The notes beneath the pieces are model-generated. The model was not told the origin of the DNA, ran no database searches, and was given only the letters and a program-made list of their open reading frames with translations. Shown in pieces: positions 8,648-34,653 of a stretch of DNA of 34,653 nt; the stretch's first letter is position 1; each line of letters begins with the position of its first letter. Origin of the DNA: a virus; IMG/VR virus record IMGVR_UViG_3300050821_001648, positions 1 through 34,653 of that record. One strand, written 5' to 3'. The translations under genes were made by a program, and so were the position numbers.

Positions 8648-9939
8648 CAGACGCCTCCCATGAAGGCATGATGTTCTGGCACGGCTGAGCCGGCGAACGC
8701 CGCGAACCAGCCGTTCACCGGATCACGGTAGAGAACGGAGCCGGGAGTGTTGCCGAAGATCAAGTCGAAGGCTGCGCTCGACGCCGCGGCGCCCTGTGCG
8801 ATCCAGTGGCCGTCGTCGAGAGCCGGCGTCGTGTTCGGGGTCGAGCCGCCATCCACGCAGTCGCCGACCGTAGACCAGAAGGCGTCGCTGTCATTGCTGG
8901 TGATCACCGAGCCCGAAAGGTCCGACGTGATATGCTTGTAGAACACGCCGCCATCCACGCTACCGCCGTGCGGGATGGCGATCTGCGTGTACCCTGGAAC
9001 CGTTCCGAGTGACCAGCCGCCGCCATGAGCCGAGGACATCTCAGTGAAGATCACGATGCCATCGCCTGAGCCGATAGACGTGCTCACTGTAACCGTCGGC
9101 GACGTGTTCGATTGGTTGCTTCCAGTAGCCGGCAGCGCAGCATTGGTATCGAACGGCGCCACCAAGGAAGCCGCGCCGTGAAGCCCAAAAGCGGTCAGCG
9201 CGGTGTTATTTGTGGCGTTGAGATTGACCGTGATTGTGTCGCCTGACAACGTGCCCGTGGACTTGGCCCACCAGACTTCCGTGTCGCTGTAGCCATTGGC
9301 GCCGGGGAAGCCCGGCGTGAACTGGAATTGCTTGCGAAGGTGCCAAGTCAGGCCGGCGCCATCGGTGATGCTGGTCACGCTTGGCGATCCCGTAAAGCTG
9401 ACGGCCTGTACGACGACAACGATGATGTCGTTGGCGTTGCTTGTAGTCAGCGTAACCGTCGGTGCTGACGAGTTGGCGTAGTTGCTAGCCGAGCCATCAA
9501 GTGTGATGATGTTGGATGGCGCGCTCACCGCTGCGTAGTTGAGGTAGGCCGAGCCGTCGAAGGTCACGACATCGAACGGGCTGTAGGCGTTCGATCCGCT
9601 CCATGCGCCGCGGTTGTTGAAGGTTGGATTGGGGACACTGGCCCAAGCTACGTTTGCCGCCGGCCCTTGGGTCTCAAGGAACTGCCCGCTAGTGCCCGGT
9701 GAAAGCACTGTCCACACGGTCGCGTTGCGGTAGAGGATGTCACCCTGTGCACTGCCGAACACTGCGTCGAGTGCCGCCGACGAGATTGTGCCGGGCAGCG
9801 GTAGGCCACCACGCTGAAGGATCGCGTTAGAGATGGCGTCGAGCGAAATTTGCTGTGCCGGTCCACCCTTGCCGGCCAGCCGGCCGATCAGGACGTTGGC
9901 GGGGAGGTCTTGCCGTACACCACGGACACGGTTCGGCAT
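8647..9939 (-). CDS. tail fibre-like protein with carbohydrate-binding-like module
   Basis: A 430-residue protein. The N terminus ([33 protein letters not shown]) and the following [31 protein letters not shown] are typical of phage fibre attachment and repeat segments. A second copy of that segment type is near the C terminus ([23 protein letters not shown]). Around residues 107-137 is a chitin-binding-like pattern ([24 protein letters not shown]). The middle (about 150-380) is a beta-rich domain with Thr/Ser-rich strands. The start overlaps the stop of the upstream small gene (ATGA). Role: adsorption apparatus, inferred from motifs and position. Confidence 0.75.
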
Positions 9940-10079
9940 CAGCGCCTCTTATACCAGAGACGCCGCCAGGGCCACCAGAGCCGCATCCTGTCGAGCCGCA
10001 TGGCCATGAAGGCACCAGTGCGCCCCATCAGCAGGAGGGCTACGATAAGACCGATGAATTTGCGCTTAACGACGTTCAC
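9939..10079 (-). CDS. small basic membrane protein
   Basis: A 46-residue frame from GTG at 10079, overlapping the end of the large virion gene by 14 nt and the fibre gene by 3 nt (ATGA). It starts with a short basic stretch (NVVKRKF), then a hydrophobic segment (IGLIVALLLMGRTGAFMAM) and a strongly basic, Trp-rich tail (RLDRMRLWWPWRRLWYKRR). The gapless overlap with both neighbours is the main evidence. Function unknown; the tail would favour the cytoplasmic side of a membrane. Confidence 0.5.
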   Translation of the reverse strand: MNVVKRKFIGLIVALLLMGRTGAFMAMRLDRMRLWWPWRRLWYKRR

Positions 10080-13000
10080 GAGGATGCCTTGTCGCTTTGT
10101 CGAATTGATATGGCGACGAGGGCTTCGGAGTGCTATAGTGTGGTGGCGCGGGATAGACTGGTTTCGGTATGCCTACGGGCTCGGCAAGGTCTTTGTCCTG
10201 CTTGTATGCCTTGTACTGCTCCTTCCACTGCTCGATCGCCCTACCGTGTTCAAGCTGCTTCTGCAAGTTCGCCTCGTCTGAGACGGCGCGCGGTTGGGTA
10301 GTGACGCCGGACCAGCGATCCACATAGCCGAGGTTCGTGCCGCGCTTAGCATTGCTGGATTGGTTCAGGAAGATCGGGCCGCCCTCCTTGACCAAACTGC
10401 TGAGCCAATCCGACGCCGACTTGCCATTCCAGATTGCCCCCGCGGTGTCGCTGATCATACGGGCGGCGGGGTTCAGCTTACCGGCGCCGTACTTGAACGG
10501 CAGTGCGAGCACGTCGGTCACGCTATTGGCGTTCCGCAGCAGAGAGTAGGCCCGCGTGATTTCCTTGATCGGCGACGGTATCTGGGCTTCTTCCGGCTGA
10601 CCGTCCGGCAGCGAACCGCCGGTTAGCGGCGCGGCCCTCAGCAAGTTCTCCGCGGCGATCAACGTGCCGGTTTTCATAAACTGATAGGCAGTGGATTGGA
10701 TCGCCGACATGGCAATGACGCCCATGAGCCAGCGCATCTTGGTACTGAACACGCTCCCGTGCGACAGGTCTTGCAGCGCCCCTCCGAAGGCCGCTAGCGT
10801 GCCGTATTCCCATCCGACGGACACGAGGGTCAGGTTGGCAATCTGCTTGACGATCCGCGGGCCGAAGTAGTTGTCCTGCACCAGTTCACCGAAGCGATAG
10901 TCCATGAGCCGATGAAGCTGCTGACCATAAGCTTGGATTTCCTCGGGCAGCGCGTGAAGGTGCGTGCCGAGCCAGCCTTCCATTTCATCGGCCCAAGCCG
11001 CGGCCTTGACCTTGGGGATGGCGTAATCGAACAGCGGCGACGAGAGTGTGTGCATGACCTGACCAAACTCATGCGCGGCGGCGCCAAGCATCCGGCCGGG
11101 GGTCAGCGCCGCCCGCATGGCTGGTGTCTCCAAGGCTGAGCCCAGAACGTGCTCAAAGTCCGCGGCCAGGACGTTGCCGAGGCCATTCTGTTGCCAGGCG
11201 GTGAACAGGTTCTTGGTGCCCGACAGGAACATTTCCTGACCCCGGCTCATCATCCGGCCACCTGTATCAGTGAAGATGCGAGCCAAGCGTTCTTCCATCG
11301 GCGTCACGTCAGTCCCGCGCAGCAGGTAGGCATCGGTGAGGCGGGCACCCTTGCGTAGCTGCGTCGCCACCTTGGGGAGCACCATAGCGCCCAGGCCGAT
11401 GTCCTGTAGGGCCTTGTTGACCTGGGCGAGCCCAATGGTAGCGTCCTTGGCTCCGTATCCTGTAAGGGCTCCCAGGCCGTTGGCGAAGCTGCTGGCGCCG
11501 ACCTCAGTAGCGATGTTGACGGCATGGAACCCACTGAGCCCGAGACCGAGGCCGAGCAAGGAGTTCGAGGCGTACAGAAGCTTGTCATAGACAGCGCCAG
11601 GGTTGACCTCGATCGGGCCGACCTGGAATGAGGGCCAGTCGTAGACGCCCTTGCCCACCCAATTGTTGTAAATCTTGGCCGCGCCCGGCGAGCCGTACAG
11701 GCGCTCGGGCATGACCCGCGCCTCACCCGATTTAGGATCAACCCATGACCGGATGCGCTGCGCCATCTGGCCTTTGAGCGGAATGTCCTGAGTACCATCA
11801 GCAGCTTTAGTCGCATAGTAGAGATACTTGTCCGCAATGCCACGGTCGATCACCCGCTTGGCGGCAATGAAATCCCTCATGCTAGCATAATAATGGAGCA
11901 TGTTGTCGATAGGATCGAGTACCTTGGGTTCGAGCCCGCGCATGATGCCATCAAAGTAGGTGGGGATCGAGCGCTTGTTGAGACTGGCCCCCGACCCTTG
12001 CCGGCCGACACCGAACAAGGCGTCGAACATAGGGTTACGTTTCCACAAATGGCGGTAATAGTCGTTGACATAGCTTGCCATGTCGGGAAACTGGTTCTCG
12101 ATCATAAACCGCATCTGCTGGTACTGGACCCGAAGCTGGTCGGCAACATCGTAGAGCGGAGATGTTGGGGCTAGCCGACCGCCACCGGGGCGCATCTCAA
12201 CATGATCGATCAAGGTCTGGATCGCGTCCGGCTTAGGCAACTGAAGGGGCGGGATTAAGGGATTGATTGGGCTAGGTCCACCGCCTGTGGCGGCAGCTTT
12301 GAGGGCTGCTTGCTCCTTGGCATAGGCATTAACCTGTTTGATGTACTCCTTGTGCGCGGGCATGAGCGGATTTATCACTTTGCGCAGATGCTCGATCGCG
12401 TCTGAGGCCAATGCTTTGTCGCGTCGAGCCTGTCCGGTTTCCTTGATGATCGCGGTTGCTTCGAGAGCCTTGGTCGTCTGCTTCAGTTTCCACGCAGCCT
12501 GTTCGGCCGGCGTCATAAAGTGCTCGCGGTAGAGCGCGCCTGTCACTTTGCCAAGCAGCCCAACGCCAGCGAAGCCAACGTCTTTCCCGACTTTGAGCGC
12601 GGGGTTGAACCAGGACATCGCGTTGCCCATACCGGCGCCGCCGTGGCCGATCATCTCCAAGGTCGTCGGGCTGAAGACCGCGGTGTCCCGGCGGAAAGCG
12701 TCGATCGCTTTCTGGATGTCGGGGAGACCAGTCATCTCGACGGCTTCGCCCGCCGCCTGCTTTGGCGTCTTGGGAGGCGGCGTGCCCATCCATACGACAC
12801 CGCCGCCCATGTCCTTCACGCCGGGCGCCAAGTCCTCGTGGGTCAGCAACTCATACGGCGGGGGCGGATTGGGTGCCCGCGTCAGTGCGTCGCGGAAGTC
12901 GGGATTAGTCTGGGTCAGGTTGTAGATGTCGCGGATATTGGCACCGCTGTTCTTCCACATATCGTACATGTTCTGACGGATCACCGGGGCGACTTTGGCC

Positions 13001-30752: not shown

Positions 30753-32252
30753 CTAACGCAAGGGCTTACCGGACCAAGGATTGATTATTGCGCCCGACAT
30801 CTCCCGGCGAGGCATTCCTTTCACATTCGGCCCGAGCGGCACCACCTTGGCGAACCGCCGCGCCATCCACCAGATGCGCGTCGCCGACATGAGGTCGTCG
30901 TTGACCTTGACGATCTTGCCCGTCGGGTCCCGGTGGTACATGCGATACTCGGACATCCACTGCGTCATCTGCATGGAGGTCTTGAACCGACCTTCGTGCA
31001 TTGCCGTGTCGAGGTCGAGGACGCCCGCCTCGGTCGAATAGCCGCCCGTTGTGAACTGCGCGTGCTCCAACAGCATCTTCAGCCCGTGGCTCCGGTAGAT
31101 TTGCGCGATCGGCTCGCCCGACATGTCCGCGACATTGCCATCGTGGGGCCATGCCACCGGAACGTTCGCCCCAATCCGCTTCATGGCCTCGGCGTGGAGC
31201 GTCGGGGAACCCTCCATCATCTTGACCTCGGCCAACAGATGCGCCGTATCGAGGTCTCGGTCCCAGGCGCCGAGCACCGCGGCGAAGGGGTGACTGGTGT
31301 TCGAGCCAGAGTGGGTGAAGTCCACCGCCCACAGCAGCGGCCAGTGAGCCGGGAGACGCAACTGGCCCTCGCGGAACTCGATACCAATGTTCCAGTGAGG
31401 TTCAAGAAGCTGATCGTCGGGGGTCGTGAACACACGCCCGCCGGCCAGATGCGGCGATCCTTCGCGCCGCGCCGGCCACTCGTGCCGCGGGTACGCGCTC
31501 AGGGTGCGCTCGATCATCTCAGGCGTCATGTGGCCGGCATCGGCAAGGGCCATCTGCACGTAGATACGAGCCTTGGCGAACTCCGGGTTCGGCTCAAGGT
31601 AGAGCTTGACGACCTCGGAATGCCCGAATAGGGGCGTGAAGGTCATCCACGAGATGCCGCCCGTGGTGATAAGACGGGCCTGCCCCTCGGTGTAAAGCTC
31701 TAGCGGGGGTTCCTCGTCGAACCAAATTCCGTGAAGGGTATCGCCTTGCCATATTCGGCGATCCTGCTCGTAGGATTTAAATCCAAGGTGGCTAACGCCT
31801 CCTGATACGTGACGAAGGTGAGCGGTGTCAAAAGCGTTTGCAGCGGATCGTGAAGCAGAAGGGTGCCCGATAATTGCCTCTTTGGGGAGAAATCCCGTCC
31901 CCATGAGATCATCCACGCCGGGCGGTCCAAAGAGCTTCGTTTGCGCGACATCTCGGACAAGGATACCCGACGGCCCCGCAGCCCACATTTTGACAGGACC
32001 GCTATTCTGGTCAAATCTCTTTCCCTTCCAGTTGTCAGGGTACACTCCGGTAAGGTGGCGAGATAGCTCAAACGCTCCCGTGTCAGATTTGCCAACACGA
32101 TTACCGGCGATAAGCAGACGCTCATTGAACTGAGAGCCATAATCCATGAACTCCTGCTGTTTTGGATAGGGATGGAAGTAGCGCCAAGCCTCGAACTGAC
32201 GCCGCTCGGTTGCCAGCTTGAGAAAGTCGTAAATTTCGTCGATGCTAGGCAA
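30753..32252 (-). CDS. terL: terminase large subunit
   Basis: A 499-residue protein. The ATPase core is visible: Walker A AGNRVGKS (residues 49-56), a downstream motif VKMWAAGPSG, and Walker B-type GIWFDEEPP with Asp179/Glu180. The nuclease half contains VDFTHSGSNTSHPFAAVLGAWDRD and a WPHDGNVADMSGEPIAQIY segment, as in podovirus terminases. The protein packages DNA through the portal. It overlaps the small-subunit gene by 8 nt. Length is in the usual range for podovirus large terminases. Confidence 0.93.
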   Translation of the reverse strand: MPSIDEIYDFLKLATERRQFEAWRYFHPYPKQQEFMDYGSQFNERLLIAGNRVGKSDTGAFELSRHLTGVYPDNWKGKRFDQNSGPVKMWAAGPSGILVRDVAQTKLFGPPGVDDLMGTGFLPKEAIIGHPSASRSAANAFDTAHLRHVSGGVSHLGFKSYEQDRRIWQGDTLHGIWFDEEPPLELYTEGQARLITTGGISWMTFTPLFGHSEVVKLYLEPNPEFAKARIYVQMALADAGHMTPEMIERTLSAYPRHEWPARREGSPHLAGGRVFTTPDDQLLEPHWNIGIEFREGQLRLPAHWPLLWAVDFTHSGSNTSHPFAAVLGAWDRDLDTAHLLAEVKMMEGSPTLHAEAMKRIGANVPVAWPHDGNVADMSGEPIAQIYRSHGLKMLLEHAQFTTGGYSTEAGVLDLDTAMHEGRFKTSMQMTQWMSEYRMYHRDPTGKIVKVNDDLMSATRIWWMARRFAKVVPLGPNVKGMPRREMSGAIINPWSGKPLR

Positions 32253-32799: not shown

Positions 32800-32845
32800 G
32801 GTGCCTATCTTACGTCTTGCGGTCTATGTTGCGATCTTAGAGGGC

Positions 32846-32873
32846 TAAATAAGATCGTAAGATGGTATTTCAA
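32846..32873 (-). promoter_or_regulatory. possible promoter of the terminase/structural operon
   Basis: On the minus strand TTGAAA (32873-32868) and TATTTA (32851-32846) are 16 nt apart, about 50 nt before the small terminase start codon. One copy of the 18-bp repeat (32849-32866) fills the spacer, so a protein binding the repeat would block or position polymerase. The -10 match is weak. Confidence 0.4.
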
Positions 32874-32910
32874 GAACTTTTTTCGTAAGAAGATAAGATC
32901 GTAAGATGGT
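32849..32910 (+). repeat. two copies of an 18-bp direct repeat plus degenerate copies
   Basis: ATAAGATCGTAAGATGGT occurs exactly at 32849-32866 and 32893-32910, 44 bp apart. Inside each copy AAGAT occurs twice, 8 bp apart. A related CGTAAGAA lies at 32884-32891, an inverted ATCTTACG at 32807-32814, and GATCTTA at 32833-32839. Together they make an iteron-like cluster directly upstream of the small terminase gene. Confidence 0.85.
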
Positions 32911-32972
32911 TTTCTGAGTAAGGTTCGTGTGGGAAAAGTGAGGTATCACGTCCGAGCCGACACGACAGGGGA

Positions 32973-32992
32973 CCCCACCCCTCCCCCACCCC
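32973..32992 (-). other. G-run motif with G-quadruplex potential
   Basis: The plus strand has runs CCCC-A-CCCC-T-CCCCC-A-CCCC. The minus strand therefore carries four guanine runs of 4, 5, 4 and 4 separated by single bases, which fits the compact parallel quadruplex rule. It lies in the noncoding region upstream of the small terminase gene, about 174 nt before its start codon. Confidence 0.75.
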
Positions 32993-33002
32993 TGGTCTCT
33001 AA

Positions 33003-33062
33003 CGCAACATTATTGCGTGGATCGGCCGATGTCGCGCAATATTGTTGCGTAATTATGTTGCG
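33003..33062 (+). promoter_or_regulatory. array of three CGCAA-N5-TTGCG operator-like sites
   Basis: Near-palindromic 15-bp sites lie at 33003-33017 (CGCAACATTATTGCG), 33035-33049 (CGCAATATTGTTGCG) and 33048-33062 (CGTAATTATGTTGCG, one arm changed). The first two also form a longer inverted repeat with each other. They are immediately upstream of a TTGACA -35 box at 33076, so binding there could activate or repress the plus-strand promoter. AATATTGTTGCG from the second site recurs at 30733. Confidence 0.7.
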
Positions 33063-33075
33063 TGATCGAATTAGC

Positions 33076-33131: not shown

Positions 33132-33731
33132 ATGACCATGATCGCTTTCGCCGCTTTCGCCGCCACGCTTGTCGGATTAGCTGGCTTTGCGTTAGGAATT
33201 CCCGCCGTGGTGATCGTAATGGGATGCGGCAGTATGCTCGTGTGCTGTCTTGCGCTTGCGGCGATACCGCTCGCGTGCGATGGCAAGCCTTGCCGCTCCA
33301 TCTTCGGCGCCAAGCACGACGGGCTCGCAGCTATCAGCAACCCAGCTTGGCTTTTCGATCAATGCGAACGAGCTTGGCATTGCTCTGATCATGCCGAAGA
33401 TGAAATCGTGCATATCCTGCAATCCGTGCCATCGCTAGGGCCGGCTAAAGCTGGTTTCTGCGCCCAAATGATCTATGGCATATCGGGATGTCTCGACACC
33501 CATAACCTACAGCGCTTCGGCATACGTGAGCGCGAGTTCCGTGGCGCCGAGGCAAAATACAAGCCCGCGACCGTGTGCGCCAAGATCGCCAGCTACAATG
33601 ACCTTTGCCGTAAGCTCGGTGGGACCGCTCACTTGTGGGACAGTTGGTGCGAGTATGTCGCGCACCGCGGCACCGCAGGCACCTTTGAGGCGAATAGCGT
33701 TTCCGCTCTACATCTCGCGCCCTTAAACTGA
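33132..33731 (+). CDS. membrane-anchored protein with helix-hairpin-helix/glycosylase-like domain
   Basis: A 199-residue protein. ATG 33132 (after GGGAG at 33120-33124) is preferred to ATG 33081, which lies on the -35 box. Residues about 4-47 make two hydrophobic spans (AFAAFAATLVGLAGFALGIPAVVIVMGCGSMLVCCLALAAIPLA). From about 85 onward is a different domain: LQSVPSLGPAKAGFCAQMIYGISGCLDTHNLQRFG, matching the PGLGxxKAGFxxQ...CLDTHN pattern of phage HhH-type proteins that resemble DNA glycosylases, and ending with HLWDSWCEYVAHRG and VSALHLAPLN. In that family the Asp in CLDTHN is the expected active-site residue. Fusion of this domain to a membrane anchor is unusual. Function not known. Confidence 0.68.
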   Translation: MTMIAFAAFAATLVGLAGFALGIPAVVIVMGCGSMLVCCLALAAIPLACDGKPCRSIFGAKHDGLAAISNPAWLFDQCERAWHCSDHAEDEIVHILQSVPSLGPAKAGFCAQMIYGISGCLDTHNLQRFGIREREFRGAEAKYKPATVCAKIASYNDLCRKLGGTAHLWDSWCEYVAHRGTAGTFEANSVSALHLAPLN

Positions 33732-33772: not shown

Positions 33773-33783
33773 GCTCTTGATTT

Positions 33784-33866
33784 CTGAGGGTCTTGTTATT
33801 ATGTCAGGGAGGGACGGCCACCAGCCGGAAGGCCAACCCCCCTTGACATTATAACTAGACCCTCAG
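33784..33866. terminator. long inverted repeat in convergent spacer (bidirectional terminator candidate)
   Basis: Arms 33784-33810 and 33840-33866 pair over 27 nt with three mismatches (outer part CTGAGGGTCT/AGACCCTCAG). The inside (33811-33839) contains a further GGCC...GGCC hairpin. It lies between the 3' ends of the converging genes 33132-33731 and 33884-34255, the expected place for a terminator that works on both strands. It is long for a simple terminator and could also be a protein-binding or recombination site. Confidence 0.6.
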
Positions 33867-33883: not shown

Positions 33884-34255
33884 TTACATTTTAAGGTGGG
33901 ATTTGATCGCTTCCACGTCTTCTCGCAGAGCCGCGATTTGATCGGCCAGCGTAAGGGACGCAACAGCCGGTTGCCAGAACTTTGGTCCTGATTGCGGCTG
34001 ACGCCACATGTTAGGCCGCGTCGAAACCTGCCGCCCGTACAGCATCCGTGCCTTGGCTTCCCCTTTGAAAACATAGGGAAAATCCGTGTTCCCCAGGGTT
34101 GTCAGGTGCTTATACATCTGGCGCTCAAGCTCGGGCTTACCCTGTCCCACGCCAAGAGAGCGGGCGATTTCCTGTGTCGTGAACGTCCTGGCCGGGTCTT
34201 CGTCGCACATGCCAATTACGGCATCCGCCACATAGTCTAAGCTAATTGTGTCCAT
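33884..34255 (-). CDS. winged-helix-like transcriptional regulator candidate
   Basis: A 123-residue protein. The start at 34255 (MDTISLDYVADAVIG) is preferred to the ATG at 34306, which lies in the promoter and would add residues of poor quality. Residues about 22-70 (ARTFTTQEIARSLGVGQGKPELERQMYKHLTTLGNTDFPYVFKGEAKARMLYGR) fit a helix-turn-helix with a wing. The C-terminal 25 residues are a coiled coil (LADQIAALREDVEAIKSHLK) suited to dimerisation. The gene is preceded by TACCCTA-type palindromes. Autoregulated repressor or activator is the working idea; the gene family is not identified. Confidence 0.65.
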   Translation of the reverse strand: MDTISLDYVADAVIGMCDEDPARTFTTQEIARSLGVGQGKPELERQMYKHLTTLGNTDFPYVFKGEAKARMLYGRQVSTRPNMWRQPQSGPKFWQPAVASLTLADQIAALREDVEAIKSHLKM

Positions 34256-34275
34256 ATTACACCCTATTGTAGAGA

Positions 34276-34292
34276 TAGGGTACAGTACCCTA
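34276..34292. promoter_or_regulatory. palindromic operator TAGGGTAC-A-GTACCCTA
   Basis: A perfect 8+1+8 palindrome about 20 nt before the regulator start codon. Related half-sites occur at 34258-34266 (ACACCCTAT), which pairs with ATAGGGT at 34275-34281, and at 34309-34316 (ATACCCTA) over the -10 box of the regulator promoter. It is a likely binding site for the regulator encoded next to it. Confidence 0.7.
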
Positions 34293-34305
34293 CCTATCGC
34301 TACCA

Positions 34306-34334
34306 CATATACCCTAGCGACGCTTATAAATCAA
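34306..34334 (-). promoter_or_regulatory. promoter of the regulator gene
   Basis: On the minus strand TTGATT (34334-34329), 17 nt spacer, TATATG (34311-34306). Transcription would begin near 34299, just upstream of the palindrome, so a protein bound there could block it. Confidence 0.6.
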
Positions 34335-34337
34335 GGC

Positions 34338-34367
34338 TTGACACCGCTCATCAAACCATGCTACTGG
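34338..34367 (+). promoter_or_regulatory. promoter of the hexapeptide-repeat gene
   Basis: Consensus -35 TTGACA at 34338-34343 followed after 18 nt by a weak -10, TACTGG (34362-34367). The -35 box is 3 bp from the -35 box of the opposite promoter, a tight divergent pair. An AGGAG ribosome site follows at 34384-34388 before ATG 34396. Confidence 0.45.
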
Positions 34368-34395
34368 CTCGAACGGTTCAAATAGGAGACCACGA

Positions 34396-34653
34396 ATGAC
34401 CGATCAAATCACATTCGACTTTCAGGACGGCAACGGGCCGGTTCCGGCCCACCAGCATTTCAATGGTGGTGGATGGGTGGCCGATACCGCTTGGGTGTCC
34501 GGCAACGCTTGGGTGTCCGGCAACGCTCGGGTGTATGGCAACGCTCGGGTGGCCGATACCGCTTGGGTGTCCGGCAACGCTTGGGTGTCCGGCGACGCTC
34601 AGGTGTCCGGCAACGCTCGGGTGTATGGCAACGCTCGGGTGGCCGATACCGCT
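34396..34653 (+). CDS. hexapeptide-repeat protein, partial at right edge
   Basis: A frame of at least 86 codons, starting MTDQITFDFQDGNG and open at the window end. From about residue 27 it is made of tandem hexapeptides of the form [WRQ]V[SYA][GD][NDT]A, for example WVADTA, WVSGNA, RVYGNA. This periodicity fits a left-handed beta-helix, in which each turn is three hexapeptides. Such repeats occur in phage and bacterial surface or acyltransferase-like proteins. The function here is not clear because only the 5' part is seen. It is the first gene after the divergent regulator promoter. Confidence 0.75.
   Translation, partial: MTDQITFDFQDGNGPVPAHQHFNGGGWVADTAWVSGNAWVSGNARVYGNARVADTAWVSGNAWVSGDAQVSGNARVYGNARVADTA
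34477..34653 (+). repeat. 18-bp tandem repeat with 72/90-bp higher-order blocks
   Basis: Units of 18 bp (six codons) with core GTGTCCGGCAACGCT or GTGTATGGCAACGCT. The variant GTGGCCGATACCGCT recurs at 34477, 34549 and 34639, giving super-repeats of 72 and 90 bp (four or five units). All differences are multiples of 18, so the frame is kept. Confidence 0.9.

Follow-up and report, generated by a model that had tools for sequence, protein, structure and literature searches.

A putative small regulator gene, operator-like repeats and divergent promoter-like sites at the early/late gene junction of a podovirus-like phage genome

The window analysed here (the whole stretch of DNA, 34,653 bases) is an IMG/VR virus record and, judging by its gene content, a partial podovirus-like phage genome. 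Late genes are read leftward and early/replication genes rightward, with the divergence between the groups at 34255-34396. Besides the terminase large subunit, the minus strand encodes an endonuclease VII, a head-tail connector, a major head protein and tail genes; at the left edge the plus strand carries the C-terminal part of a family A DNA polymerase, and it further encodes a RusA-like resolvase and an exonuclease and has an endolysin-like gene. Both edges of the window are truncated genes, the right edge lying inside an 18/72-bp tandem repeat. A segment that contains part of the early region, and would link the cut right-hand gene to the left-edge DNA polymerase, is therefore probably missing. 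The closest known terminases (approximately 41% identical) came from Rhizobium phages, which suggests an alphaproteobacterial host. Known phages showed no DNA similarity to the locus or to 25 kb of the window. The features of the locus are as follows:

30756-32252, minus strand: terminase large subunit gene
33132-33728: ORF199, a member of an unnamed viral family
33783-33866: long, near-perfect hairpin (-55.5 kcal/mol, z -9.4)
33884-34255, minus strand: P0001, putative regulator of 123 amino acids, adjoining the repeat cluster
34260-34266, plus strand: half-site CACCCTA (1 mismatch), overlapping the P0001 Shine-Dalgarno region (AGGGTG, minus strand)
34276-34292: perfect 17-bp palindrome TAGGGTACAGTACCCTA, at roughly +7 to +23 in the transcript predicted for the leftward promoter
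34306-34335, minus strand: leftward promoter-like site, CTTGAT-N17-GTATAT (34335-34307) or TTGATT-N17-TATATG (34334-34306)
34310-34316, plus strand: TACCCTA, an exact half-site that lies between the -35 and -10 boxes of the leftward promoter, with a 2-bp contact with the -10 box
34337-34366, plus strand: rightward promoter-like site, CTTGACA with a weak -10 box, CTACTG
34396-34653, plus strand: start of the right-hand gene, encoding a YdcK-like beta-solenoid repeat protein, cut by the contig end

The YdcK-like gene is served by an AGGAG ribosome-binding site at 34384. Its near-identical 18/72-bp repeats occupy 34475-34653, and the end of the contig within them is likely to be an assembly break. 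On the other side of the locus, the hairpin (about 82 nt) lies between the convergent ORF199 and P0001 genes, 18 bp beyond the P0001 stop codon. It exceeds an ordinary terminator in length and is a probable bidirectional terminator between the two genes. ORF199 had no match in Pfam or NCBIfam; its family, carried by nine IMG/VR contigs, displays the motifs GLGxVKAxFxAQ, CxDxHN and WDSWCEYVA. A second divergent gap (32800-33075), between the terminase small subunit gene and ORF199, contains two more repeat families: ATAAGATCGTAAGATGGT-TT, found in two copies (32849 and 32893), and CGCAAYATTRTTGCGT palindromes at 33003 and 33035, directly upstream of a TTGACA/TAGCAT promoter-like site.

Comparisons of P0001 with Pfam, PHROGs and NCBIfam returned no family at a meaningful score. 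No relative was found by tblastn in phages or plasmids, nor in IMG/VR or GTDB contigs using a short exact pattern search, which could miss distant relatives. The AlphaFold2 single-sequence model (mean pLDDT 61.7) contained helices at residues 6-19, 27-34 and 41-56 and a C-terminal helix at 103-120. Block means were 70-84 over residues 1-50 and the three helices reached 65-84; residues 57-82 were unreliable and the wing region was below 50. Foldseek searches of the PDB and viral folds with this model gave nothing significant. A second fold aligner matched P0001 to the winged-helix proteins 3k69, SloR, ScaR and LexA over 53-57 residues with Z scores of 4-6, a weak and generic level that the aligner itself warns is common. 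The sequence-only reading had proposed a winged-helix-like protein with a C-terminal coiled coil; the model does show an N-terminus of winged-helix-like form and a helix at the C-terminus, albeit with low confidence and with neighbours at Z 4-6. "Winged-helix-like" is thus a fair lead from the model, short of an identification.

The repeats adjoining P0001 had been described as a perfect 17-bp palindrome accompanied by three further half-sites. The palindrome was confirmed, as were an exact half-site at 34310-34316 and a second one, at 34260-34266, that differs at one position, but the third half-site was not found: beyond these, the gap held no copy of TACCCTA with one mismatch or fewer. The half-site placed over the -10 box does overlap TATATG (34311-34306), but by 2 bp only, and the CACCCTA copy may simply be the ribosome-binding site of P0001. 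Exact TACCCTA occurs three times in the whole 34.6-kb window, and all three copies fall within 41 bp. Palindromes of the 8+1+8 type were seen twice in the window, against 1.4 expected per shuffled window. When only the 140-bp gap was shuffled, such a palindrome arose in 8 of 2,000 shuffles, and a palindrome together with a third exact heptamer copy in 1 of 20,000. The repeat cluster is non-random, beyond what chance would give. The palindrome pattern was absent from all other IMG/VR contigs, and a literature search for a TACCCTA operator, judged by titles and abstracts, returned nothing relevant.

The gap also contains consensus matches on both strands, in line with the divergent promoter-like region proposed earlier. 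The two -35 boxes, TTGATT (34334-34329, minus strand) and TTGACA (34338-34343, plus strand), are 3 bp apart as described. A first scan with the E. coli consensus reported no promoter at the divergent region. The sigma-70 consensus of Sinorhizobium meliloti is CTTGAC-N17-CTATAT (PMC2573895). The leftward site matched 8 of 12 positions of the E. coli consensus and 10 of 12 of the rhizobial one, the latter having been chosen after the sequence was seen and on the strength of the inferred host. Only 8 sites in the whole window reached 10/12 with the rhizobial consensus, and the leftward score was attained in 3% of shuffles of the region. The rightward site, CTTGAC with CTACTG, scored 9/12 with the rhizobial consensus; in a looser E. 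coli-type scan it also scored 9/12, with TTGACA matching at 6 of 6 positions and the -10 box at only 3 of 6. Two rhizobial-consensus sites at 9/12 or better were found in 7% of shuffles. On these matches, the alphaproteobacterial sigma-70 consensus appears to describe both putative promoters better than that of E. coli does. With transcript starts set about 7 nt beyond each -10 box, leftward transcription would begin near 34299 and rightward transcription near 34373.

All operator-like sites lie on the regulator side (34260-34316), at about -17 to +39 of the predicted leftward start, where they overlap only the promoter, start and leader of the leftward transcript. Since the sites are all on the regulator's own side, the best reading is that P0001 binds the TACCCTA sites and negatively autoregulates its own gene, a proposal to which we give an even chance. 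The leftward promoter would make P0001, which would most likely dimerise via its C-terminal helix. The dimer would bind the palindrome and flanking half-sites, at about -17 to +39 relative to the P0001 transcript start, and would block RNA polymerase, turning its own transcription off. Only one polymerase would fit the promoter pair at a time, because the -35 boxes are 3 bp apart and the footprints would overlap; repression of leftward transcription could then open the way for the rightward early promoter. The sites, their non-random clustering and the gene order are observed, and from them we infer P0001 as the ligand, its dimerisation, the repression and the effect of polymerase competition on the right-hand gene. 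The sequence-only reading had gone further, to an autoregulated switch controlling the right-hand genes, which the analysis does not support. The geometry suits the negative autoregulation, but the rightward promoter (34337-34366) is overlapped by no site: the sites are at least 57 bp upstream of the predicted rightward start, the nearest site centre being about 60 bp upstream. Control of the right-hand genes is possible, but could act only at a distance or through RNA polymerase competition. Counted in favour of autoregulation were the tight site cluster and its placement on the leftward promoter side, the 10/12 leftward match, the winged-helix-like arrangement and C-terminal helix modelled for the adjacent gene's product, the genome layout, with late genes on the minus strand (terminase, connector and capsid) and early genes on the plus strand (polymerase, RusA and exonuclease), and the direction change beside the ORF199 homologue that is kept in a related contig, L024. 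Counted against it were the lack of a sequence relative for P0001 and of a homologous operator in IMG/VR, the wing pLDDT below 50, the generic fold matches, the coincidence of one half-site with the Shine-Dalgarno region and the weak rightward -10 box.

The arrangement resembles the immunity-type regions of lambda and P22 in having a small HTH-type gene and repeated operators between divergent promoters at an early-gene junction; the divergent promoters are represented here, at the sequence level, by consensus matches on both strands. Unlike a lambda-type switch, in which operators lie over both promoters, the sites described here fall on the leftward one only. P0001 has no CI or Cro homology in Pfam, PHROGs or NCBIfam, and no integrase or cro-like gene was seen in the partial genome. 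The first gene on the other side is the YdcK-like solenoid gene, cut by the contig end. Winged-helix autorepressors (LexA, DtxR/MntR and Rrf2-like proteins), whose folds are among the aligner's matches, offer another comparison. P0001 would share with them a three-helix winged-helix-like N-terminus, as modelled, and a palindromic site over its own promoter and leader, with a half-site between the leftward -35 and -10 boxes. However, the structural match is of low confidence (Z 4-6) and comes without sequence similarity, and the operator sequence differs.

Several other explanations were weighed against autoregulation by P0001. The operators could serve another regulator, be it a host protein or a CI-like protein whose gene lies in the missing phage segment, and P0001 would then be merely a regulated gene. 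The contig indeed lacks the segment that would join its two truncated end genes, the right-hand gene and the DNA polymerase gene, and the repeat families of the neighbouring divergent gap are different ones to which no binder is assigned. Nevertheless, P0001 adjoins the sites and, as modelled, looks like a DNA-binding protein, and a small HTH gene beside its own operator is the usual arrangement; we regard a different regulator as unlikely. The palindrome might also act as RNA, a leader hairpin and pairing with the Shine-Dalgarno region being exclusive folds that control translation or mRNA stability. The predicted P0001 leader can form a 10-bp palindrome hairpin (-15.0 kcal/mol) or an alternative fold in which the 3' arm pairs with the Shine-Dalgarno region (-9.9 kcal/mol), and the 104-nt fragment was more stable than all 200 shuffles (z -2.7). 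The palindrome hairpin would form first and is the stronger, so that translation of P0001 would be open by default. However, the shorter 60-nt leader was not unusual (z -1.2), such alternative folds come with any inverted repeat array and an Rfam search matched no family. In addition, the predicted transcript starts downstream of the half-site at 34310-34316, leaving it out of the RNA; it cannot act there, which favours a DNA operator. We consider control by the leader distinctly unlikely. That the repeats are functionless, a chance arrangement beside an ordinary promoter, would agree with the expectation of about one 8+1+8 palindrome per window and with a pattern unmatched in the rest of IMG/VR, but is very improbable given how rarely shuffling of the 140-bp gap recreated the palindrome with its third copy.

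A further alternative came from the comparison with relatives, which were sought via the terminase, the head-tail connector, the terminase small subunit, ORF199 and the YdcK-like proteins. Among these, a syntenic stretch was obtained from L024 alone (a 46.6-kb contig), in which order and orientation are kept and identities with the window are 43% for the terminase, 39% for the head-tail connector and 58% for the ORF199 homologue. L010, a fragment of 4.4 kb, stops short of the locus, although those of its proteins that were tested are 100% identical, and the ORFs beside the ORF199 homologues of L025-L032 included no P0001-like gene. In L024 the slot beside the ORF199 homologue is occupied by a gene for a Prim-Pol/AAA protein of 620 amino acids (8798-10657), leftward as is P0001. 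The next rightward ORF starts 55 bp beyond the start of this gene, which possibly encodes a C-terminal winged helix. The repeat array could accordingly be read as an iteron-like replication origin and P0001 as the protein that binds it, a relative of the C-terminal domain of a primase-polymerase/helicase. The slot and strand are shared, and the last 95 residues of the L024 protein are 32% identical to P0001 when aligned with gaps, with a shuffle p of about 0.001; the resemblance is a lead. In a wider comparison the similarity was not significant: the score of 75 was only one of the highest few from 8,037 windows, and unrelated windows scored up to 83. Moreover, BLASTP did not detect it, adding the L024 sequence to the P0001 fold alignment brought no gain in model confidence, and P0001 lacks the Prim-Pol and AAA domains. 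The array itself has only four sites, unevenly spaced, with no strong AT-rich stretch, and we consider an origin improbable. It is less probable still, to the point of being a highly speculative idea, that P0001 is a domain split from a replicative primase-polymerase/helicase, now a stand-alone regulator in the same slot with former origin repeats as its operators.

Collectively, the region is most likely an ordinary phage control region, an autoregulated small DNA-binding protein encoded beside divergent promoters being commonplace in phages. If negative autoregulation by P0001 holds true, a candidate operator would be at hand for an orphan regulator from a podovirus lineage of which little is known, and the back-to-back promoter pair is small and would be suited to reporter use.
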